From contig WQTD01000003.1 of assembly GCA_009786455.1 (NCBI GenBank), positions 60,119-102,252 of the forward strand: 42,134 nucleotides of DNA. Direction: 5' to 3'. Each line of letters starts with the position of its first letter. Position 1 is the first letter of the stretch. Position numbers and translations under genes: made by a program. Under the pieces are notes generated by a model. The model saw only the letters and a program-made list of their open reading frames with translations, did not search any database and was not told where the DNA came from. Positions 13,688 through 33,610 of the stretch are shown here, in pieces. Origin of the DNA: Treponema sp. (GTDB lineage Bacteria; Spirochaetota; Spirochaetia; Treponematales; Breznakiellaceae).

Positions 13688-14290
13688 TTAATTTGCATAT
13701 GTTTTGAGTATTTCTTCTGCGATTACTCTTTTGGCTGAACGTAGATCCATCGCCTGTTTTTCAATAAAACGATGAGCTTCCTTTTCTGTCAGGTTCAGAT
13801 AGGAAATGAGCACGCATTTTGCCCTGTCAATTATCCGGATGTCTTCGATTTTCTGTTTCAGCTTTGCGTTTTCTTCCTGTATTCGTTTCAATTTACTGCT
13901 TACGGCTTTTGCAAGGGAAAGCACCGACCAGAAAAAGTTCTTGTCTACAGGTTTTGAAACCGTTAAAATCCCTTCTTCCTGACAAACAGCCGAAACTGCG
14001 TTAAAATGCTCGCTGTTAACAGCAAGGATCACCTGCGACGATCCCTTGACTGCGACATACCGCGCCAGAACTTCCCCTGATTCATCTGCAAGAGGCGCGT
14101 CTATTATTACGATATCAAAGTCATTTTCAAGAAGCGTTCTGCGCGCTTCCCCGGCGGAAGCAATGACGGTAATTCTTTTAATTGAAGCGTCTTTTAATAC
14201 ATCAGAAAAAAGCGCAATGCTCTTTTCTGTGCATGAGATTAAAAGTACATTGCAGCCGTTCAATGCTTTAACCGTAAGGGTGCTTCCCAT
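13688..14290 (-). CDS. ANTAR-domain transcription antiterminator with a pseudo-receiver (NasT/AmiR/NitR type)
   Basis: The 200-residue protein has a receiver-like domain (about 12-125), a coiled coil (about 130-152) and a C-terminal ANTAR RNA-binding domain (about 145-198) with the family core IIDRAKCVLISYLNLTEKEA, AMDLRSAKRVIAEEIL. The receiver keeps an Asp (Asp64 in VIIDAPL) and a Lys (SKPVD), but the acidic pair that binds magnesium is replaced by CTE after the first strand, so normal phosphorylation is doubtful. ANTAR proteins bind paired RNA hairpins and prevent terminator formation. It is the last gene of the gltB3-glmS-glnA operon. NitR of Clostridium saccharobutylicum is, to my knowledge, a comparable ANTAR protein in a glnA/gltAB cluster. 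Likely RNA targets are the leaders near 31518-31613 and 32871-32979. AGAGG precedes the ATG. Confidence 0.85.
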   Translation of the reverse strand: MGSTLTVKALNGCNVLLISCTEKSIALFSDVLKDASIKRITVIASAGEARRTLLENDFDIVIIDAPLADESGEVLARYVAVKGSSQVILAVNSEHFNAVSAVCQEEGILTVSKPVDKNFFWSVLSLAKAVSSKLKRIQEENAKLKQKIEDIRIIDRAKCVLISYLNLTEKEAHRFIEKQAMDLRSAKRVIAEEILKTYAN

Positions 14291-14417: not shown

Positions 14418-15722
14418 TCAATATAACTTTCTTTGCGCCGCGTAAATTTGCGTTTTATCTTTAGTTGTCATAAATTCATTTAACTCAATTTTTTTTATAT
14501 CCAAATACTTTGACATAAGCTGCCCGCCTATTATGTCTTTAACAAATGCGCTTCTTTCGGCAAGAGCGATTGCTTTTTCCAGAGTATCAGGAAGTTCTGT
14601 TAAATCTTTTGTTATGCTTTTATTTGCCAAATAAAGATCTTCATCAACCGCGGGAGGAAGAACCTTGTTTTTCTCAATGCCGTCAAGCCCTGCGGAAATA
14701 ATCAGCGCAAAAGCAAGATACGGATTAAGTGAAGGATCAGGCGATCGCAGTTCCATTCTGACATTTCTTCCTGAAGCAGCGGGAATTCTCACAAGCTGCG
14801 AGCGGTTTTGATGCGACCATGATACATACTTCGGCGCTTCAAATTTACCGAATCTTTCATATGAATTCGCAAGTGGATTCAAAAACAAAGTTATCTCAGG
14901 CGTCTTTTCAAGAATTCCCGCGATGAAACTTTCCGCGTCTTTTGAATGACCCTCGCCTGCATTTTTAAATATATTTTTTCCATTCCTGTAAAGCGAAAGA
15001 TTGATGTGCATTCCGTTTCCCGGCGCGTCAGGAAGCGGTTTCGGCATAAATGAAGCCGACAATCCGTTACGTGAAGCGATCGCCTTCACGACTGTTTTAA
15101 AAGTCTGCTGATCGTCAGCGCTGGCGACAGGATCGTCAAATTTAAAATCTATTTCATTCTGCCCCGGTCCCTGTTCATGATGGGATCTTTCGGGTTTTAT
15201 TCCCATTTCTTCGAGCGTAAGGCAAATCTCACGGCGGATATCTTCGCCCCTGTCCAGAGGAGAAATATCCATATAAGTGCCGTTATCCAAAGTGGAATTT
15301 GACAGCTCGCCGTTATCGCTGTTTTTAAAAAGATAGAATTCATATTCGCCTCCTATCTTGCAGTCATAGCCCATACCAAGCATTTTTTCTGTTGCTTTTT
15401 TTAATATGTTCCTTGTATCGCGATCAAAAGCTGAACCATCCGGCGTTTTAATATTGCAAAAAAAACGCACAACCCTTCCGTTTCCGGGACGCCATGGAAG
15501 AACCGCAATTGTCGAAGGATCCGGAAATAAAAATAAATCCGACTGCGTAATATCGCGGAAACCGCGTATTACATGCGCGTCAAAAGAGATGCCGTTTTCA
15601 AGAGCAGACGCAAGTTCATCCGCCATGATGGAAATATTTTTCTGGAAACCGAATATATCGCAGAAATTAAGACGGACAAATTTTACGTCGTTTTCCCTTA
15701 TAAATTCCAATACTTCATTCAT
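14418..15722 (-). CDS. glnA: glutamine synthetase, type I
   Basis: The 434-residue enzyme joins ammonia to glutamate using ATP in the cytoplasm. Hallmarks are the N-terminal beta-grasp (VKFVRLNFCDIFG), GGEYEFYLF with catalytic acids, HHEQGPGQNEIDFKF, the MPKPLPDAPGNGMHINLSL active-site block, and the NRSQLVRIPA and ELRSPDPSLNPYLAFA segments. The size is that of the short GSI-alpha class and no adenylylation loop is evident, so control is probably by feedback or expression. I chose ATG 15722, with AGGAG 8 bases before it and the family-like start MNEVLEFIRENDVKF, over the in-frame ATG at 15785, which would overlap the glmS stop. It sits between glmS and the ANTAR gene. Confidence 0.92.
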   Translation of the reverse strand: MNEVLEFIRENDVKFVRLNFCDIFGFQKNISIMADELASALENGISFDAHVIRGFRDITQSDLFLFPDPSTIAVLPWRPGNGRVVRFFCNIKTPDGSAFDRDTRNILKKATEKMLGMGYDCKIGGEYEFYLFKNSDNGELSNSTLDNGTYMDISPLDRGEDIRREICLTLEEMGIKPERSHHEQGPGQNEIDFKFDDPVASADDQQTFKTVVKAIASRNGLSASFMPKPLPDAPGNGMHINLSLYRNGKNIFKNAGEGHSKDAESFIAGILEKTPEITLFLNPLANSYERFGKFEAPKYVSWSHQNRSQLVRIPAASGRNVRMELRSPDPSLNPYLAFALIISAGLDGIEKNKVLPPAVDEDLYLANKSITKDLTELPDTLEKAIALAERSAFVKDIIGGQLMSKYLDIKKIELNEFMTTKDKTQIYAAQRKLY

Positions 15723-15741
15723 AAATACTCCTGATAATTGA

Positions 15742-15775
15742 GCTTTTCCCAAAACCCGGTTAATTTTGGAAAAGC
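15742..15775. repeat. palindrome between glmS and glnA
   Basis: GCTTTTCCCAAAA and TTTTGGAAAAGC flank CCCGGTTAA. It is the same family as 14382-14412, so glnA is bracketed by two related hairpins. Confidence 0.65.
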
Positions 15776-15781
15776 CATAAT

Positions 15782-17611
15782 TCATTCAACCGTAACGCTT
15801 TTTGCAAGATTGCGCGGTTTATCTATATCCAAACCTTTATTTGCGGCGACATAATAACTGAATAGCTGTAAAGCAATAACCGACAATGAAGGCGAAAAAA
15901 TTTCAGAAACCTGCGGCAGAACAATGTGATAAAATTTCCCGCTTTCCTGATCAACCTTTGGGCAATTTCCGATTAGTAAAACCTTCGCGCCGCGGCTTAT
16001 AACCTGCTCGGCATTACTCATTATTTTATTATATAAATAATAGTAATTTGAAAGGGCTACGACAAGCGTATTCTCTTCCACAAGCGAAATTGTTCCGTGT
16101 TTTAATTCACCGCCGGCATAAGCTTCCGAGTGAATATAGGAAATTTCCTTTAGTTTGAGCGAACCTTCAAGCGCGATTGCGTAATCAATATTTCTTCCGA
16201 TGAAAAAAATGCTCTTGTAACCGATGCATGTTGAAGCATACATTTGAATCGAACCGATCCTGTCAAGAATCTCTGACACCTTGTCGGGAAGACTTTTAAT
16301 TTCCTCAATTTGTTTTTGCTCTTCTTCAGGTTGAATTTTTCCAAGCCGGCGCGCAAAGCGAATCGCGAGTATGTACAGTAAAATAAGCTGCGCTGAAAAT
16401 GCCTTTGTTGTCGCAACCGCGATCTCCGGACCTGCCGCTGTAAAAATACAATAATCCGCTTCCTTTGCAATTGCGCTGCCTACTACATTAACGATTGCCA
16501 ATGTCGGTGCGCTCTTTGATTTTGCCTCCCTCATTGCGGCGATTGTGTCCGCAGTCTCGCCGGACTGGCTTACAAGAATAACAAGCGTCTTTTCGTTTAT
16601 AACAGCGTCTTTGTAGCGAAACTCGCTTGCCAGTTCAACTTCAACGGAGATTCTGCAGAGTTTTTCAAACACATACTTTGCGACAACCCCGGCATTGTAT
16701 GCCGAGCCGCATGCGGTTATCATAATTTTATCAAAACGGATAATATCAATATTATCCAATACTTTCCTGTTTTCACCGTCTGTAACGGCTGACTGAATTG
16801 TATCGCGCAGCACTTTCGGCTGCTCCATAATTTCCTTCAGCATAAAGTGCGGATAACCATCCTTCTCCGCGCTGTCCATGCTCCATGTTATTGTCTCGGC
16901 TTTTTTTTGAAGCGGCTCCCTGTCCGTATTGAAAAACTGAATATCTTTTTCATGAAGAACAGCAACTTCCCTGTCGTTAAGATAATAAACCTGATTCGTA
17001 TGTTTCAGCACCGCAGGCACATCAGAAGCGATAAAATTTCCGTGATTGCTTTTTCCTATGATCAGGGGATTGTCTTTTTTTATCGCGACAAGAAGGTCAG
17101 GCTCGTCAATGCACATAACACCCAGCGCATAAGAGCCTTCAAGGGCGTTTGACACTTTGATAACCGTATCGATTATATCTCCGCTGTAATAATGCTCTGC
17201 AAGCTGCGCAATTACTTCGCTGTCGGTTTGTGAAACAAAGGTCACGCCACGGTTTTCAAGGCGTTCTTTTATCTGTTTGTAATTTTCAATGATACCGTTA
17301 TGCACAACGGCAATTCTGTTTTTGCTTCCCGTATGGGGATGCGAATTTATATCTGAAGGTTCTCCGTGCGTAGCCCAGCGCGTGTGTCCGATGCCAAGAT
17401 GCCCTGAAAGCGGTTTATTCTCCCGCATGAGGGAAGACAGACGCTCTTCCAGAACAACAAGCCGCCCTTTTTGCTTTACAATATCAAAGCCATTTTTTCC
17501 GTAAACAGCAATACCGGCGGAATCGTAGCCGCGGTACTCAAGTTTTTTAAGACCGTCAATTATAACAGGAACAGCGTCTTTATCTCCCACATAACCGATA
17601 ATGCCGCACAT
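15782..17611 (-). CDS. glmS: glutamine-fructose-6-phosphate aminotransferase (isomerizing)
   Basis: The 609-residue enzyme uses glutamine to aminate fructose 6-phosphate, the first step of UDP-GlcNAc synthesis. The N-terminal class II glutaminase begins MCGIIGYVG with catalytic Cys2, and contains GIGHTRWATHGEPSDINSHPH and VVHNGIIENY. Two SIS sugar-isomerase domains follow (SQSGETADTIAAMREAK; IGRNIDYAIALEGSLKLKEISY), and the C terminus is the expected KSVTVE. Length is normal. It lies between the GXGXG subunit gene (67-base gap) and glnA, so glutamine supply and a major glutamine consumer are co-expressed. The upstream gap is too short for a glmS ribozyme. Confidence 0.95.
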   Translation of the reverse strand: MCGIIGYVGDKDAVPVIIDGLKKLEYRGYDSAGIAVYGKNGFDIVKQKGRLVVLEERLSSLMRENKPLSGHLGIGHTRWATHGEPSDINSHPHTGSKNRIAVVHNGIIENYKQIKERLENRGVTFVSQTDSEVIAQLAEHYYSGDIIDTVIKVSNALEGSYALGVMCIDEPDLLVAIKKDNPLIIGKSNHGNFIASDVPAVLKHTNQVYYLNDREVAVLHEKDIQFFNTDREPLQKKAETITWSMDSAEKDGYPHFMLKEIMEQPKVLRDTIQSAVTDGENRKVLDNIDIIRFDKIMITACGSAYNAGVVAKYVFEKLCRISVEVELASEFRYKDAVINEKTLVILVSQSGETADTIAAMREAKSKSAPTLAIVNVVGSAIAKEADYCIFTAAGPEIAVATTKAFSAQLILLYILAIRFARRLGKIQPEEEQKQIEEIKSLPDKVSEILDRIGSIQMYASTCIGYKSIFFIGRNIDYAIALEGSLKLKEISYIHSEAYAGGELKHGTISLVEENTLVVALSNYYYLYNKIMSNAEQVISRGAKVLLIGNCPKVDQESGKFYHIVLPQVSEIFSPSLSVIALQLFSYYVAANKGLDIDKPRNLAKSVTVE

Positions 17612-17660: not shown

Positions 17661-17680
17661 AAATGAAACCTGTTTCATTT
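17661..17680. repeat. perfect 9-bp palindrome overlapping the gltB3 stop codon
   Basis: AAATGAAAC and GTTTCATTT are separated by two bases. A near-identical palindrome is at 21045-21063. It overlaps the stop codon of the GXGXG gene, so on the mRNA it would form a hairpin right at the end of translation. Confidence 0.65.
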
Positions 17681-18398
17681 AATTTGCAGTATATAACTGC
17701 TTGTACGGATTTTTCGCGTTTGGTTTTAAAATTAAAAATTGATCCTTCAGAAGAGAAGCGGCGTCCATGCCGAACAGGGAAGCAAATTCGTTTACAACGC
17801 CTTCAATTTCCCTTAGATCATCGTTAGCTGCAACATCAACAGCAACCTGTTCAGGGAGGGCGGTGATTTCTTTTTCCGTTCTGATAAAGATTTTCCCGCC
17901 GTGCATGCCTGTCCCTGTAAAATTACCGACAGGTTGTTCGCCTTCAGCGCCGATACCGAGTACAACGATAAGTCCTCCTGCAAGATATTCACCGAGAAAA
18001 CTCCCTGTCTTTCCGCCGATTACAATAACAGGTTTCTTTTCTTTATATTCCTTCATGTGAATACCTGCTCTGTATCCTGCATTGCCGCGGACAAAAATAC
18101 TTCCTCCGCGCATTGCGTAACCAAGCGCATCTCCGGCGTTGCCGTGAATAATGATCTTTCCGTCATTCATGGTATCGCCTGCAGCGTCCTGCGCGTTACC
18201 CTGCACTTCGATCACAGCGCCGTCAAGGTAACAGCCGAGCGCGTTGCCGGGCGTTCCGTTTATTGTGAGCGTTTTCCCGCTTAAAGCGCTGCCGATAAAA
18301 CTCTGTCCGTAAACATCTTCAAGACAGACATATTCGCCCGCAGCTTTGATTCGTTCATTCAGTTCTTTAAAGAGAAAATTTTTCGCCATTATGCTCAT
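17679..18398 (-). CDS. glutamate synthase GXGXG-domain subunit (GltB3/GlxC-like)
   Basis: The 239-residue protein consists almost entirely of the right-handed beta-helix that closes GltB, with repeated G-x-x-G-x-x-x-x-G units such as GTPGNALGCYLDG, GNAQDAAGDTMNDG, GNAGDALGYAMRGG and GNAGYRAGIHM. In bacterial GltB this is the C-terminal domain of one long chain. In archaeal-type systems it is a separate polypeptide, as with GlxC or MgsB. Its partners are encoded at 28853-31463, about 10 kb away on the same strand. It leads the operon with glmS, glnA and the ANTAR gene. The start could be ATG 18398 or 18389; neither has a Shine-Dalgarno sequence. N-methylglutamate synthase is the main alternative, but the glnA context favours glutamate synthase. 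Confidence 0.85.
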   Translation of the reverse strand: MSIMAKNFLFKELNERIKAAGEYVCLEDVYGQSFIGSALSGKTLTINGTPGNALGCYLDGAVIEVQGNAQDAAGDTMNDGKIIIHGNAGDALGYAMRGGSIFVRGNAGYRAGIHMKEYKEKKPVIVIGGKTGSFLGEYLAGGLIVVLGIGAEGEQPVGNFTGTGMHGGKIFIRTEKEITALPEQVAVDVAANDDLREIEGVVNEFASLFGMDAASLLKDQFLILKPNAKNPYKQLYTAN

Positions 18399-18407
18399 GG
18401 TGTTTTA

Positions 18408-18436
18408 TTTATACAGAAAGCAGGAGGTTTCGTCAA
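18408..18436 (-). promoter_or_regulatory. sigma70 promoter of the gltB3-glmS-glnA-ANTAR operon
   Basis: On the minus strand, TTGACG (18436-18431), a 17-base spacer and TATAAA (18413-18408) put the transcript start about 3 bases before the first ATG at 18398. The operon therefore seems to begin with a leaderless gene and has no room for an ANTAR leader. Confidence 0.65.
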
Positions 18437-28852: not shown

Positions 28853-30358
28853 TTACTCGCCCGCGTGTTTTATTCCCAGAATCTCAAGTTCTTTTTCATT
28901 AAGACTGACGCCGCGAAGCATCGCCCTGTTGCCTTTCAAACTTTCAATTGAGTTGATACCCATGCCGCCCATCATCTCTTTTATTTCATGCTGCCAGGCT
29001 GTCAAAAGATTGACAAGCCGCTTGTAACCGATGTCAGGGTTTAAGCGCTTTGTAAGTTCCGGAACCTGCGTCGCGATTCCCCAGTTGCATTTGCCTCCGT
29101 GGCAGCTTCTGCACAAGTGGCAGCCTAGCGCAAGGAGTGCGCTTGACGCGATGTAAACGCAGTCCGCGCCCAGCGCGACAGCTTTTACAACATCCGCGCT
29201 TGAATGAATGCTGCCTCCTGCGACAAGCGAAACATTGTCGCGGATTCCTTCGTCGCGAAGACGCTTGTCCACGCTTGCAAGAGCAAGTTCAATCGGAATA
29301 CCGACATTGTCTCTTATTCGCGTAGGAGCGGCTCCCGTCCCGCCGCGAAAACCATCTATGGAAATTATGTCAGCGCCGCTTCTTGCGATACCGCTTGCGA
29401 TTGCGGCGACATTGTGCACCGCGGCGATTTTTACAATCACGGGCTTCTTGTATTCAACCGCTTCTTTTAACGAAAAAACAAGCTGGCGTAAATCTTCTAT
29501 CGAATAAATATCATGGTGGGGGGCAGGCGAGATCGCATCGCTTCCTTCGGGGATCATTCTGGTGCGCGCAATATCGCCTACAATTTTCTTTCCCGGCAAA
29601 TGTCCGCCTATACCGGGTTTTGCACCCTGCCCCATTTTTATTTCGATAGCAACTCCTGCGTTTAAATACCGGGGGTGAACTCCGAATCTACCGGAAGCAA
29701 CCTGCACGATTGTGTTTTTTCCGTAGCGATAAAAATCTTCATGAAGCCCTCCTTCGCCTGTGTTGTAAAGTATGCCGAGTTCTTCAGCGGCGCGTGCAAG
29801 GCTTTCGTGCGCATTGTAACTGATTGAACCGTAACTCATGGCTGAGAACATCACCGGCATTGAAAGAGAAAGCTGAGGCGGAAGGTTATTTTTAAGCTTT
29901 CCGTCCGCGCCTCGTTCGATTGTCTGCGGTTTTGCGCCTAACGAGATTTTTGTTTCCATAGGTTCGCGCAGCGGATCAATCGAAGGATTTGTAACCTGCG
30001 AGGCATTAAGAAGTATTCTGTTAAAGTAAATGGGAAAATCTTCCGGATTACCCATGCTGGAAAGGAGAACTCCGCCGGTATTGGCCTGACGGTAAATTTC
30101 ATTTATTGTCTTACCGCTCCAGTTAATATTTTCCTTGTAAGTGTTATTGCTCTTAACGATTTTAAGTGCGCGCGTCGGACACAGTGAAACACATCTATGA
30201 CAATTTACACAATGGGCATCGTCGCTGGTCATCCTGTTCTCAGCCTCAAGATACTCATGCGCTTCATTCGCACACTGTCTCTGGCAAGCCCTGCAGATAA
30301 TGCATCTGTCGTCATTTCTGGCTATTTCATAATCAGGATAAATATAATTAACAGGCAT
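28853..30358 (-). CDS. gltB: archaeal-type glutamate synthase, FMN/Fe-S catalytic subunit
   Basis: The 501-residue protein makes glutamate from 2-oxoglutarate and ammonia using reduced FMN. It begins with a two-cluster ferredoxin domain (Cys19, 22, 25, 29 and Cys50, 53, 56, 60), absent from the bacterial GltB core. The FMN-binding TIM barrel follows: MSYGSISYNAHESLARAAEE, GEGGLHEDFY, KMGQGAKPGIGGHLPGKK and SIDGFRGGTGAAP. The [3Fe-4S] motif is CHLCRSCHGGKCNWGIAT. The N-terminal glutaminase and C-terminal GXGXG domains are separate proteins here. It starts 4 bases after the glutaminase gene. MgsC of N-methylglutamate synthase is a homologue and possible alternative. Confidence 0.9.
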   Translation of the reverse strand: MPVNYIYPDYEIARNDDRCIICRACQRQCANEAHEYLEAENRMTSDDAHCVNCHRCVSLCPTRALKIVKSNNTYKENINWSGKTINEIYRQANTGGVLLSSMGNPEDFPIYFNRILLNASQVTNPSIDPLREPMETKISLGAKPQTIERGADGKLKNNLPPQLSLSMPVMFSAMSYGSISYNAHESLARAAEELGILYNTGEGGLHEDFYRYGKNTIVQVASGRFGVHPRYLNAGVAIEIKMGQGAKPGIGGHLPGKKIVGDIARTRMIPEGSDAISPAPHHDIYSIEDLRQLVFSLKEAVEYKKPVIVKIAAVHNVAAIASGIARSGADIISIDGFRGGTGAAPTRIRDNVGIPIELALASVDKRLRDEGIRDNVSLVAGGSIHSSADVVKAVALGADCVYIASSALLALGCHLCRSCHGGKCNWGIATQVPELTKRLNPDIGYKRLVNLLTAWQHEIKEMMGGMGINSIESLKGNRAMLRGVSLNEKELEILGIKHAGE

Positions 30359-30362
30359 GATA

Positions 30363-31463
30363 TTAAATCTCCTCTCTCAGCTGAACAATAACAGGCTGTC
30401 CGCCTTTCGGCGCCCACACTTTATCAAGATTCGGTTCGTTTATACGTATAGCAGACTCTTCGCTTGCGACATAAACAGTATCGTCTTTTTCGCCGACTAC
30501 CATGCTGCGAAGTTTCAGTCTGTCATTAAGAGCCATAAGCCCGCGCTCGCCAGGACCGTTGTCAAAACCAACAAGTATTGAGAAGGGACCCGTGATAAGC
30601 TGATCGGCGAACATTACGCGCAAATATTCATGCGTTTCCCTCTCTTCTTTCGCCATCCGTCCGATTGTCTGCCAGAAGGGAGCGGCGATAACGGAAGCAA
30701 TTTCGCTTAACGTCAATCCTATTTTTCTGTGAAGATAATCGATAATATATGTGATAACCTCGGTATCCGTCTGAAGTGTGCATTTGTAACCGTACATTTC
30801 GATAGCGCGGCGGTTCGCGTCGTAGGATGAAATCTCGCCGTTATGCACAACTGAATAATCAAGCAGTGCGAACGGATGCGCGCCTCCCCACCAGCCCGGA
30901 GTATTTGTCGGATAACGGCCGTGTGCTGTAAAACACCAACCTTCGTATTCTTCCAGTTTATAGAAACGCCCGACATCTTCAGGAAAACCGACAGCCTTAA
31001 AGCATCCCATATTCTTGCCGCTTGAAAAAACGTAGGCGCCTTCTATTCCTGTGTTGATGCTGAACACGCACTTTGCGGTAAATTCGCGTTCGTCTAGCTG
31101 ACTGTCGGCGAGTTTAGTGGGAAGCGGCGTAACAAAATAACGCCAGATTAAAGGTTCGTCGGTAATTTCCTTGATTTTTCTGACAGGAATTTTCGAGAGA
31201 TTTATTATATCAAAATGTTCATCCAGAAATTCCTCGCATTCCCTTTTTGCTGACGTTGAATCGTAAAACATGTGCAAAGCATAAAAATCCCTGTACTCAG
31301 GATATATCCCGTAAGCCGCAAATCCGCCTCCCAGACCATTGGAGCGGTTGCGCATCACTTTAATGGAATTTATTATAGCCTCGCCGCTTACGCGCCTTCC
31401 TGACTTGTTAATAATCCCGGAGATTGCGCATCCTGACGGGATTCTATTTTGACCTTCTCTCAT
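30363..31463 (-). CDS. glutamate synthase glutaminase subunit (class II amidotransferase, GltB1/GlxB-like)
   Basis: The 366-residue Ntn hydrolase releases ammonia from glutamine for the FMN subunit. The nucleophile is Cys12 in IPSGCAISG; the 11 residues before it would have to be removed to free its amino group, as with the GltB propeptide. Other contacts are HGRYPTNTPGWWGGAHPF, VVHNGEISSYDANRRAIEMYGYKC and QTDTEVITYIIDYL. ACGGAGGGA precedes the ATG. It is first in a two-gene operon with its own promoter and a long structured leader (31518-31649) that carries a candidate ANTAR antiterminator. Confidence 0.9.
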   Translation of the reverse strand: MREGQNRIPSGCAISGIINKSGRRVSGEAIINSIKVMRNRSNGLGGGFAAYGIYPEYRDFYALHMFYDSTSAKRECEEFLDEHFDIINLSKIPVRKIKEITDEPLIWRYFVTPLPTKLADSQLDEREFTAKCVFSINTGIEGAYVFSSGKNMGCFKAVGFPEDVGRFYKLEEYEGWCFTAHGRYPTNTPGWWGGAHPFALLDYSVVHNGEISSYDANRRAIEMYGYKCTLQTDTEVITYIIDYLHRKIGLTLSEIASVIAAPFWQTIGRMAKEERETHEYLRVMFADQLITGPFSILVGFDNGPGERGLMALNDRLKLRSMVVGEKDDTVYVASEESAIRINEPNLDKVWAPKGGQPVIVQLREEI

Positions 31464-31517
31464 GCTTCCCTCCGTGATACGGTTTGCATGCGCCTTTTTG
31501 ACAGTACGTACAAATTT

Positions 31518-31613
31518 AAAAAGCGTTCACCAAATAACAAGGTATAACCCGACATAGCGTCTAGCTATTCTCTTACTATATAGTGAACGCCTTTGTTTGC
31601 GACTTTAAAGCCG
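31518..31613 (-). ncRNA. structured leader RNA of the glutamate synthase operon: candidate ANTAR antiterminator/terminator, copy A
   Basis: Reading on the minus strand, the predicted transcript begins at a hairpin GCGGC/GTCGC with a TTTAAA hexaloop. Next comes the block AACAAAGGCGTTCACT, where AAC/GTT can close an AAAGGC hexaloop (31589-31594) that fits the A1/G4 rule of ANTAR targets. GCGTTCAC (31590-31583) also pairs perfectly with GTGAACGC (31530-31523), with ATAGTAAG/CTTGTTAT stacking inside and five U residues after, so hairpin and terminator exclude each other. The first hairpin lacks the A1/G4 loop and the AAAGGC stem is short (3 bp), so the ANTAR assignment is an inference. Confidence 0.6.
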
Positions 31614-31619
31614 CCCTTC

Positions 31620-31649
31620 ATTCTCGCAAAAAACAAAGATTTTTGTCAA
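31620..31649 (-). promoter_or_regulatory. sigma70 promoter of leader A and the glutamate synthase operon
   Basis: On the minus strand, TTGACA (31649-31644), an 18-base spacer and GAGAAT (31625-31620) place the transcript start at the first hairpin of leader A. It lies 16 bases beyond the stop of the EAL gene. Confidence 0.6.
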
Positions 31650-31665
31650 GGGGAAAAACCTCTCT

Positions 31666-32859
31666 CTAAATTAAAACAATCGGTATTCTTTTTATATCGG
31701 CGAACAGGTAAAGATTATCTGTAAGCTCATAAAAAAAGGTAAAAATTCGTTCTTTTGTTGAAAAATCCCGGTACCCTGAAGACAAACCGCTCTTTCTGCC
31801 GGAAATAATTAATTCCATTGCTTCCTGAAAAAAACCTCTCCATGCCCAGTTATTGCCGGGATAACCCTGATATTTCACTTCTCCGGAATTCCACTCGAAG
31901 TTGCGCGAAATTTGTTCTCCCTGTCTGTTACACAGATAAATTCTCATTACTTCAGGCAGTTCACAGCAAAGCTCATAAAGACCGCTATCAATATTTTCTT
32001 TCTCAAAAAAGCAGGGATTTTCCGCAAGAAAAAATTTGATTTTTGAATCCAGATAATTTTTCAGCAGATCAGTGTATTCAAAAGTTTTATATTGTTTATT
32101 ATGAGTATCATACGCGGCTGATATGAATAAATTGCTGTTTACAATGGCATTATTCATTGATGCCTGCGGATATGCGATTAAAAACCCCTGATAAAGTCTT
32201 CCCCTGGAAGACATACAGATTTCAAGCTGCTTTTGCGTTTCAATTCCTTCGTATAAAATTTCTATTCCGACAGCCTCCGCAAAAGATGCCAGTGATTTTA
32301 GATATTCGCGGTAATGATAGGAGTTCTCGCTTTTATGTATATAATCAATATTAATTTTAATAATATCAGGTTTGAGAAAAGCAAGCCTTTCAATATTGCT
32401 TGCATTCTTTCCGTAATCATCAAGCGCAATAAGACATCCTTCATTTTTATAATAAGAAATAATATTGATATGCCTGTCATCTGCGTTAAATTCTTCTTCT
32501 GTAATTTCTATTACAATTCTTCCCGGATCTATTCCAAGTTCCCTTGCCCACTTTATTGTAGGCATTTCTTCAGGTTTATCAACATAATCGTCAAGCCATG
32601 CCAGTCTGATATTAATAAAAAGGTATTCCGTTCTTTTCTCCAGCGCGTATTTTTCCAGTGCTTTCCTTCTTACAATACGATCCACTCTCAGCGCTTCTTC
32701 GTGCGTGGTATTTTCATCTGAAAAAAATGATCCCAATGATCTTACAGTTCCGCCGCAGTCTATAAAACGTCCCAGTATTTCATAAGAGAAGATTTTATTG
32801 GTCGCAGCGCATATAATAGGCTGAAAATAAGGAGTAATATTATTTGTTAAAAATTCCAT
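31666..32859 (-). CDS. EAL-domain c-di-GMP phosphodiesterase with C-terminal YkuI-like sensory domain
   Basis: The 397-residue cytoplasmic protein would hydrolyse c-di-GMP. Catalytic and metal positions are kept: Glu27 in EIL (EAL motif), Asn83 in FINIRLAW, Glu118 in VIEIT, Asp147-Asp148 in ALDDYG, Lys168, Glu204/Glu207 in YEGIETQKQ and Gln224 in YQGF. The loop after DDYG reads KN instead of the usual xG, so some activity may be lost. The C-terminal 150 residues (about 240-397) resemble the PAS-like domain of Bacillus YkuI, a protein of the same length. ATG 32859 follows GGAG; an in-frame ATG at 32889 lies in the terminator arm and is rejected. Its leader matches that of the glutamate synthase operon. 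Confidence 0.85.
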   Translation of the reverse strand: MEFLTNNITPYFQPIICAATNKIFSYEILGRFIDCGGTVRSLGSFFSDENTTHEEALRVDRIVRRKALEKYALEKRTEYLFINIRLAWLDDYVDKPEEMPTIKWARELGIDPGRIVIEITEEEFNADDRHINIISYYKNEGCLIALDDYGKNASNIERLAFLKPDIIKINIDYIHKSENSYHYREYLKSLASFAEAVGIEILYEGIETQKQLEICMSSRGRLYQGFLIAYPQASMNNAIVNSNLFISAAYDTHNKQYKTFEYTDLLKNYLDSKIKFFLAENPCFFEKENIDSGLYELCCELPEVMRIYLCNRQGEQISRNFEWNSGEVKYQGYPGNNWAWRGFFQEAMELIISGRKSGLSSGYRDFSTKERIFTFFYELTDNLYLFADIKRIPIVLI

Positions 32860-32870
32860 TTTTAACTCCA

Positions 32871-32979
32871 AAAAAAAAGAGGCGCCCACTGTATAGCAAA
32901 TAACACCTGCCGGTTAAAAACCGTACAGTTATTAACTATAGAGTGAACGCCTTTGTTCGCGGTTCTAAAGCCGTGTACT
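32871..32979 (-). ncRNA. structured leader RNA of the EAL gene: candidate ANTAR antiterminator/terminator, copy B
   Basis: Same layout as copy A. A 5' hairpin (CGG/CCG enclosing CTTTAGAA) leads to the identical block AACAAAGGCGTTCACT; here GAAC/GTTC closes the AAAGGC hexaloop (32954-32949). GGCGTTCAC (32951-32943) pairs with GTGGGCGCC (32889-32881), continued by TATAG/CTATA, ATAAC/GTTAT and CGGTT/AACCG, forming a long rod followed by TCTTTTTTTT. Arm bases differ from copy A (GTGAACGC versus GTGGGCGCC) but pairing is kept through G-U pairs, which is covariation in support of the structure. The U run directly abuts the GGAG ribosome-binding site. Confidence 0.65.
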
Positions 32980-32980
32980 A

Positions 32981-33009
32981 CTTTTATAAAAAATGAGGAA
33001 ATTTGTCAA
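32981..33009 (-). promoter_or_regulatory. sigma70 promoter of leader B and the EAL gene
   Basis: On the minus strand, TTGACA (33009-33004), a 17-base spacer and TAAAAG (32986-32981), with an overlapping TATAAA two bases upstream, place the transcript start just before the first leader hairpin. Confidence 0.6.
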
Positions 33010-33040
33010 GAGGCAGTCAAACCGTGAAAAACTGTTTGTA

Positions 33041-33610
33041 TCAGGTTTTCAGGAAATTTTTAATAATTATCCTGCCGTCAGGCGTAAGTATTGACTCAGG
33101 ATGAAACTGCACTCCATAAACAGGATATTTTTTATGACTTACCGCCATTATTTCTCCGTCATATGTCCATGCGGTAATTTTTAGTACATCAGGCAATGTC
33201 GATTTTACTCCTGCAAGAGAATGATACCGCCCGGCATGAAAGACAAGCGGCATTCCCTTGAACAAAGCATCTTCCCTGTCAACTACCGTAACCTGCGAAG
33301 ATTTCCCGTGCATTAATTTATCCGCGTAAGACACAGTTCCACCGAAAGCTTCAAATATCGCCTGATGCCCGAGGCAAATTCCCAGAATCGGTATTGACGC
33401 ATGAAGGTGTTTTATTAAGTCGATGCAGATACCGGCGGCGGAAGGTCTTCCAGGACCGGGAGAAATTACAATGCGCTTAGGGGAAAGTTTTTTAATTCCA
33501 TCTGTGTTTAACTTATCGTTACGCACAACTTTTATATCGGGATTAAAAGAGCCGATTAGCTGATACAGATTGTAGGAGAAGCTGTCATAATTGTCGATTA
33601 AGAGTATCAT
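33041..33610 (-). CDS. trpG: anthranilate synthase glutaminase component (TrpG/PabA)
   Basis: The 189-residue class I amidotransferase begins MILLIDNYDSFSYNLYQ, has the nucleophile in GICLGHQAIFEAFGG, and the His-Glu of the triad in GVQFHPES. It supplies ammonia from glutamine to TrpE. The same protein may serve PabB elsewhere. Its start overlaps the trpE stop by 4 bases. It is last in aroF-trpE-trpG and ends 32 bases before the promoter of the EAL leader. Confidence 0.92.
   Translation of the reverse strand: MILLIDNYDSFSYNLYQLIGSFNPDIKVVRNDKLNTDGIKKLSPKRIVISPGPGRPSAAGICIDLIKHLHASIPILGICLGHQAIFEAFGGTVSYADKLMHGKSSQVTVVDREDALFKGMPLVFHAGRYHSLAGVKSTLPDVLKITAWTYDGEIMAVSHKKYPVYGVQFHPESILTPDGRIIIKNFLKT

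Follow-up and report, generated by a model that had tools for sequence, protein, structure and literature searches.

How do two neighboring genes of a Treponema sp., one encoding an EAL protein and the other a subunit of glutamate synthase, come to lie behind leaders of the same kind, and could an ANTAR protein act on both? We addressed this question in a 42,134-nucleotide stretch of contig WQTD01000003.1 (hereafter the window), which also encodes an ANTAR protein. As described in the cited passages, ANTAR RNAs have two hexaloops (PMC3369931, PMC8934654, PMC7496416, PMC8164766, PMC3369936), and the window leaders pair an ANTAR-type hexaloop with a first hairpin of another kind.

Two window leaders each have a predicted promoter, an AAAGGC hexaloop and an overlapping terminator

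The two leaders, their parts and the genes behind them are as follows.

33009-32870, minus strand: copy A leader, before the EAL/YkuI-type gene
33004..33009, minus strand: copy A -35 box TTGACA (-10-like bases at 32988-32981; spacer 17)
32960..32973, minus strand: copy A 5' hairpin CGG-CUUUAGAA-CCG, predicted at -2.4 kcal/mol; not an A1/G4 hexaloop
32945..32958, minus strand: copy A ANTAR-type hexaloop hairpin GAAC[AAAGGC]GUUC
32870..32951, minus strand: copy A intrinsic terminator GGCGUUCACU...AGUGGGCGCC with U tract and a 5' arm overlapping the hexaloop hairpin
31666..32859, minus strand: EAL + YkuI_C gene behind copy A
31649-31518, minus strand: copy B leader, before the split glutamate synthase
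31644..31649, minus strand: copy B -35 box TTGACA (-10 GAGAAT, poor, at 31625-31620; spacer 18)
31599..31614, minus strand: copy B 5' hairpin GCGGC-UUUAAA-GUCGC, predicted at -7.9 kcal/mol; not an A1/G4 hexaloop
31586..31597, minus strand: copy B hexaloop hairpin AAC[AAAGGC]GUU
31518..31594, minus strand: intrinsic terminator of copy B, likewise with a 5' arm overlapping the hexaloop hairpin
30363..31463, minus strand: class II glutamine amidotransferase subunit of the split glutamate synthase (PF00310), behind copy B
28853..30358, minus strand: glutamate synthase FMN/Fe-S subunit (PF01645)

This anatomy had been read from the window alone in the original prediction, and the promoter, the 5' hairpin, the 16-base block and the long U-tailed hairpin overlapping an AAAGGC hairpin were all borne out where they had been placed. 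The block AACAAAGGCGTTCACT is identical in both leaders (32957-32942 and 31597-31582, minus strand), both promoters score 10/12 (consensus bases of TTGACA and the -10 hexamer), and 22 bases in copy A and 21 in copy B separate the -10 from the hexaloop stem. The AAAGGC hairpin has four pairs in copy A and is weaker than had been implied in copy B, with three pairs and an outer A-C mismatch.

In both copies the 5' arm of the terminator begins inside the AAAGGC loop, and by this overlap the hexaloop hairpin and the terminator are mutually exclusive. The minimum-energy structures computed by RNAfold contain the terminator in both copies (-39.5 and -41.9 kcal/mol). Folding a fragment without the terminator 3' arm placed the hexaloop hairpin in the minimum-energy structure of copy A, not of copy B.

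Exact matches to the 15-mer AACAAAGGCGTTCAC in the 2.35-Mb assembly, which is 86% complete, were limited to copies A and B. Allowing up to two mismatches gave 13 matches, versus 10 for a reversed control pattern, and none of the other 11 near matches, judged by eye, was part of a promoter-hairpin-terminator leader.

The terminator helix covaries in a leader class found within and beyond the genus

We searched for relatives with a covariance model built from 12 sequences and with a hexaloop-plus-terminator pattern; pattern and models were seeded with GAAC stems. The model matched at E <=0.1 in 17 of 39 genus genomes. Such a search had been suggested with the original prediction, and it returned further copies in relatives, with covarying terminator arms and with hexaloop stems that changed but remained paired. 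The terminator helix covaries: its 12 columns are 97.2% paired across the 12 sequences, and 98.5% of cells are paired in a 51-sequence alignment that was fitted to the covariance model and includes two reverse-strand matches. Doubly changed cells number 51 in the larger alignment, where shuffling gives a mean of 13.6. The earlier remark that the arms differ between the window copies yet stay paired thus holds in the larger alignments as well.

The pattern occurs in at least 119 stretches of GTDB contigs, from Clostridia, other Treponema, Proteobacteria and a few others. Treponema bryantii, a cultured relative, has a leader of this type (L157). Counts beyond the genus refer to 80 loci among the matches listed, minus 6 apparent in-gene chance matches and 3 repeats from the genus. 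Leaders were grouped into a genus set (n=42, 41 from the genus and one from G051, out of 45 after exclusion of the palindrome L118 in G034, of L072 as a copy of L059 and of L097:11043 at 20 bits) and, among the matches listed, a set from other Treponema/Spirochaetales (n=13) and a Clostridia set (n=41, including one Planctomycetaceae and one Coriobacteriia MAG). Proteobacterial copies, among the matches listed, mostly precede a nitrite/sulphite reductase or an NMT1-like substrate-binding protein, which we take to be of the nitrate type.

Twelve other genomes hold 13 orthologues or partial copies of the window amidotransferase gene. Hexaloop and terminator were found upstream of eight; two, in G006 and G017, keep the hexaloop without the terminator, and three have no leader directly upstream. 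One of the latter is in G026, where the leader precedes the upstream EAL gene instead, a homologue 68% identical to that of the window. In the glutamate synthase leaders of G006 and G017 (L036:1412, L043:1469), the hairpin abuts the ribosome binding site and a terminator was not seen. Attenuators arranged in tandem, with hexaloop and terminator both present in each, precede nifH (L093:3051-3240, minus strand) and a gene of the glutamine synthetase type (L088:2999-3134, minus strand) in G031. By eye, inverted arms similar to TGACCACTTAATTTTGG recur in the terminator loops of L096:192, L100:1900 and L117:1403, from three species, and may represent a small mobile repeat.

Hexaloop stems change between lineages and stay paired

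Because the hexaloop stem hardly varies in the 12-sequence alignment, it gives no covariation there: three of its four pairs are constant, and none is changed at both positions. We then collected AANGGC loops followed by a terminator with no stem required. Four Watson-Crick pairs formed at 157 of 300 such sites, compared with 89 of 11512 sites of a control class of hexamers; five further control loops gave 0 of 266. The paired sites comprise 106 GAAC/GUUC stems, a count enriched by the fetching of loci partly by that stem, 9 proteobacterial P1 hairpins (CUUC/GAAG) and 42 other stems, among them AAAC/GUUU, CAGC/GCUG, AGAC/GUCU and ACAC/GUGU. Judged by eye, the sites left unpaired include coding sequence as well as antisense strands of these terminators. 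When wobble pairs are allowed, 66 paired sites have a stem other than GAAC, and 29 of them have a promoter scoring >=9 within 16 bases. Across lineages, the stem therefore changes with pairing kept, and the A1/G4 loop and the closing C-G pair are constant. The same rule, a terminal C:G pair with A1/G4, was obtained by SELEX with NasR, as given in the cited passage (PMC7496416).

These sites also bear on whether GAAC-N6-GUUC could be an operator in the DNA, bound by a repressor shortly after the promoter, with an independent terminator. The inverted repeat does lie just past the -10, a frequent place for repressors to bind, and its stem is nearly invariant in the genus. However, the non-palindromic AANGGC loop is kept and its 3' half is a terminator arm, stems vary between lineages around that loop, and ANTAR genes co-occur with the leaders (see below). 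We consider an operator very unlikely.

Most leaders have a single hexaloop just downstream of the predicted promoter

We searched the 40 bases upstream of the hexaloop for a second C-G-closed A1/G4 hexaloop. None was found in the genus set (0/42) or, among the matches listed, in other Treponema/Spirochaetales (0/13) and the Clostridia set (0/41), which makes 0/96 non-proteobacterial leaders in total. In Proteobacteria, 10 of the 17 leaders among the matches listed have a textbook P1, typically CUUC[AACGGC]GAAG. When any closing pair is accepted, 2 of the 42 genus-set leaders have an upstream A1/G4 hairpin, where shuffling gives a mean of 1.3. Downstream of the first hexaloop, a second was found in 3/42, 1/13 and 4/41 leaders of the three sets, close to the shuffled values of 3.4, 0.9 and 2.7.

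Promoters scoring >=9/12 precede 39 of 42 genus-set leaders (letter-shuffled mean 8.0) and, among the matches listed, 12 of 13 leaders of other Treponema/Spirochaetales (2.3) and 35 of 39 of the Clostridia set (7.1; two leaders with fewer than 45 upstream bases omitted). The end of this sigma-70-type promoter lies a median of 9-11 bases from the hexaloop stem outside Proteobacteria, among the matches listed, so that the RNA should begin a few bases before the hexaloop, at the predicted start. This short distance, about 9 bases from the predicted -10 to the hexaloop, would explain why P1 is missing outside Proteobacteria.

The window copies belong to a long-spaced minority. Among 41 genus-set leaders with a promoter score >=8, 35 have 6-13 bases between the -10 and the hexaloop stem and six have 21-41. 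One of these six comes second in a tandem pair; the remaining five, including both window copies, fold an extra 5' hairpin with UUA in its loop. Could this hairpin (loop UUUAGA/UUUAAA) be a working P1 with a relaxed loop rule, and the window leaders canonical dual-hexaloop targets? It is present in both window copies, and a 5' hairpin with a UUA loop recurs in the long-spaced genus leaders L096:192, L090:10820 and L087:822. Its loops nevertheless lack A1 and G4, the copy A hairpin is weak in the folding model, and the 6-13 bases of the 35 short-spaced leaders are too few for a P1, which together make this reading unlikely. The original prediction had proposed a variant class from the odd first hairpin; a variant class is favored, but that hairpin is not its class-wide P1, and most leaders have no room for one. 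The window's first hairpin looks most simply like a local insertion rather than a canonical P1, and we infer that it serves as a spacer or RNA stabilizer.

Leaders co-occur with an ANTAR gene that neighbors glutamine synthetase

The ANTAR gene of the window lies behind three other genes of a presumed operon.

18399..18436, minus strand: promoter-like TTGACG/TATAAA of the GXGXG-GFAT-glnA-ANTAR operon, read by eye
17679..18398, minus strand: GXGXG subunit of the glutamate synthase type (PF01493, 106 bits), first gene of the presumed operon
15782..17611, minus strand: GFAT-like gene (SIS + GATase), same presumed operon
14418..15785, minus strand: glutamine synthetase gene glnA, directly upstream of the ANTAR gene
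13688..14290, minus strand: NitR-like protein with degenerate receiver and ANTAR domain, the sole ANTAR match in the assembly

In Clostridium saccharobutylicum, nitR presumably also lies beside glnA. The window operon has no leader after its promoter-like sequence, the ATG lying 9 bases past the -10. Unlike in the window, an attenuator leader precedes the ANTAR-holding operon in five relatives, suggesting autoregulation.

The ANTAR domain (PF03861) scores 54.7 bits against a cut-off of 27.3, and the receiver 26.1 bits, under the Pfam cut-off of 30.2. By alignment to EutV, whose numbering is that of the cited part of PMC8934654, the window protein keeps the residues corresponding to K149, E160, M172 and R175. 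Its receiver retains D64 (EutV D54) and K113, with S19/C20 placed by eye at the acid pair position. We compared 41 such proteins from the genus and its close relatives. The K149, E160 and M172 positions do not vary among them, all 41 have His for Tyr164 and Glu for Arg168, the D54 position is D in 18, N in 21 and S in 2, and hardly any retain the acid pair, as placed by eye. With D54 often Asn and the acid pair nearly always lost, the receiver looks degenerate, as in AmiR, which makes phospho-relay control less likely. We also considered whether single leaders are restricted to the H164/E168 type of ANTAR protein and rejected this, as G093, G094, G100 and G103 have more distant ANTAR proteins and, by eye, short-spaced leaders.

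Leaders and ANTAR genes go together at several scales. Of 247 Spirochaetota genomes, 33 have an ANTAR gene, 13 a leader and 12 both (Fisher p 5e-11); the second covariance model may itself include sequences from some of the genomes scanned. The sole leader genome without ANTAR in this phylum has a leader of 35.8 bits, and 21 of the 33 ANTAR genomes have no leader match. Within the genus, an ANTAR gene is found in 11 of 14 leader genomes (E <1e-4) versus 4 of 25 others (p 2e-4, with genomes counted irrespective of shared descent), and in 12 of 17 versus 3 of 22 at a leader E <=0.1. Among the matches listed, the leader pattern led to 50 genomes (48 outside Proteobacteria, 2 within), 47 of them with ANTAR, and 27 of the 30 loci returned for them show a glutamine synthetase match within about 1.5 kb of the ANTAR gene.

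The exceptions fall on both sides. In the 99%-complete G020, a good leader (39.4 bits, E 2e-4) precedes carA, and no ANTAR match was found. An ANTAR match was also missing in the leader genomes G030, G017 and G001 (70, 71 and 83% complete), G082, G096 and G097, as well as in G327, with a weak leader, and G034, where the match is probably not a leader. Conversely, the genus genomes G003, G023 and G035 have an ANTAR gene and no leader match at E <=0.1; G023 has a candidate leader with a CAGC stem and a poor promoter.

Leaders precede genes of nitrogen and nucleotide metabolism

We assigned downstream genes by best BLAST match to reference members, with Pfam searches on 24 downstream proteins; four leaders without a readable downstream gene were excluded. 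Among the matches listed, 84 of 91 single-type leaders precede nitrogen, glutamine, purine, pyrimidine or arginine genes. The 91 comprise 31 amidotransferases of the glutamate synthase type, 16 carA, 6 GSI, 5 GXGXG, 5 pyrG, 4 asnB, 4 purC and 3 purA, two each of purF, GSIII, gdhA, MCP-like and Fe-S genes, and one each of glutamate synthase FMN subunit, argG, EAL, ABC binding protein, nifH, amtB and aminotransferase genes. The same type of leader is seen before Cache + HAMP (chemoreceptor-like) genes at L080:1501 and L086:376.

A regulon centered on glutamine users, together with the G020 leader, would also suit a protein-free, metabolite-binding riboswitch, for example for glutamine. The original prediction had named an unrelated riboswitch family as the outcome that would speak against it, and neither the window nor any of 9 sampled loci contained an Rfam family at the gathering score; at a permissive E-value, 31450-33100 gave sub-threshold matches only and no credible family. 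A four-pair hairpin is, to our knowledge, smaller than any aptamer, and a riboswitch leaves the link with ANTAR unexplained. It appears the most improbable of the readings considered.

A candidate mechanism of single-hexaloop antitermination

Judged from their sequences, both window leaders are likely to be transcription attenuators controlled by ANTAR antitermination at a single, 5'-terminal hexaloop, through the glnA-linked NitR-like protein with its degenerate receiver. The leader anatomy, the paired stem changes, the lack of a second A1/G4 hexaloop, the co-occurrence with ANTAR genes and the target genes come directly from the computations; stem changes, co-occurrence and nitrogen targets lend good support to the candidate ANTAR target originally placed before the glutamate synthase and EAL genes. 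We infer the start sites, binding, read-through and signal. By default, the nascent RNA would fold into the terminator. The active ANTAR protein, probably at nitrogen or glutamine limitation, would hold the AAC[AAAGGC]GUU hairpin, and the held hairpin would take the 5' arm from the terminator, so that transcription could continue to the EAL gene and to the operon for glutamate synthase. In the lineage of the window, many Clostridia and other Treponema, a single hexaloop at the predicted RNA 5' end would then be enough, without the recruitment hairpin P1.

A more specific version is possible, and we hold it tentatively: antitermination would follow glutamine status, with the degenerate-receiver ANTAR protein gated by the neighboring glutamine synthetase rather than by a histidine kinase, and would allow expression of glutamine amidotransferases, of nitrogenase and of a predicted c-di-GMP phosphodiesterase, all by way of one 5' hexaloop. 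The gate itself is our guess from adjacency and the degenerate receiver.

Discussion

Our searches of the literature, with the supplementary tables of Ramesh 2012 outside their scope, gave no account of ANTAR targets that have a single hexaloop or come from Treponema; "spiroch" is absent from the main texts of PMC8164766, PMC3369931 and PMC8934654, and "Treponema" from the first two. A single-hexaloop class linked to ANTAR and glutamine synthetase would, if true, break the two-hairpin rule of ANTAR recognition. It points to an RNA-based glutamine/nitrogen regulon in Treponema and Clostridia, whose leaders would probably escape a search model with two hairpins, and its EAL target would link nitrogen status with a predicted c-di-GMP enzyme.

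The closest precedent for the signal is NitR of Clostridium saccharobutylicum, likewise an ANTAR regulator of nitrogen assimilation genes, which is said in the cited passage to induce GS/GOGAT genes on nitrogen limitation (PMC6316151, citing Stutz 2007). We found no description of an RNA target of NitR in the literature searched; beyond NitR, the present leaders would add a candidate target class from Spirochaetota and Clostridia, whose downstream genes include EAL, nif, carA, pyrG and pur. Control of the protein may also differ from known systems. According to the cited passages, AmiR has a pseudo-receiver without phosphorylation residues and is controlled by its partner AmiC (PMC8934654), and NasS-NasT is a protein pair like AmiR/AmiC (PMC3795266); whereas those regulators have partner proteins, the usual neighbor of ANTAR here is glutamine synthetase.

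The leaders share with the dual-hexaloop targets EutV/eutP, NasR/nasF and AmiR/amiE (Ramesh 2012) the A1/G4 hexaloop, the closing C-G pair and the overlap with the terminator 5' arm. Dual-hexaloop targets also serve nitrogen genes, including glutamate synthase and nitrogenase, as listed in the cited passages (PMC3369931, PMC7496416). Against the single-hairpin reading, one hairpin does not suffice in the characterized systems: in the passages cited, deletion of P1 ablates EutV induction in vivo (PMC3369931), and NasR has an affinity of ~12 uM for P2 alone versus 1 uM for P1P2 (PMC7496416). Since the described RNAs have two hexaloops and NasR binds a single hairpin poorly, the window leaders would be a variant rather than canonical members. 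The EutV-RNA structure, as presented in the cited part of PMC8934654, indicates that a dimer cannot contact both hairpins of one RNA simultaneously, and a recruitment role was proposed for P1; a natural class without P1 would directly test this model. Unlike the dual-hexaloop targets, the leaders found outside Proteobacteria have one hexaloop at the predicted 5' end of the RNA, with neither P1 nor an inter-hairpin linker.
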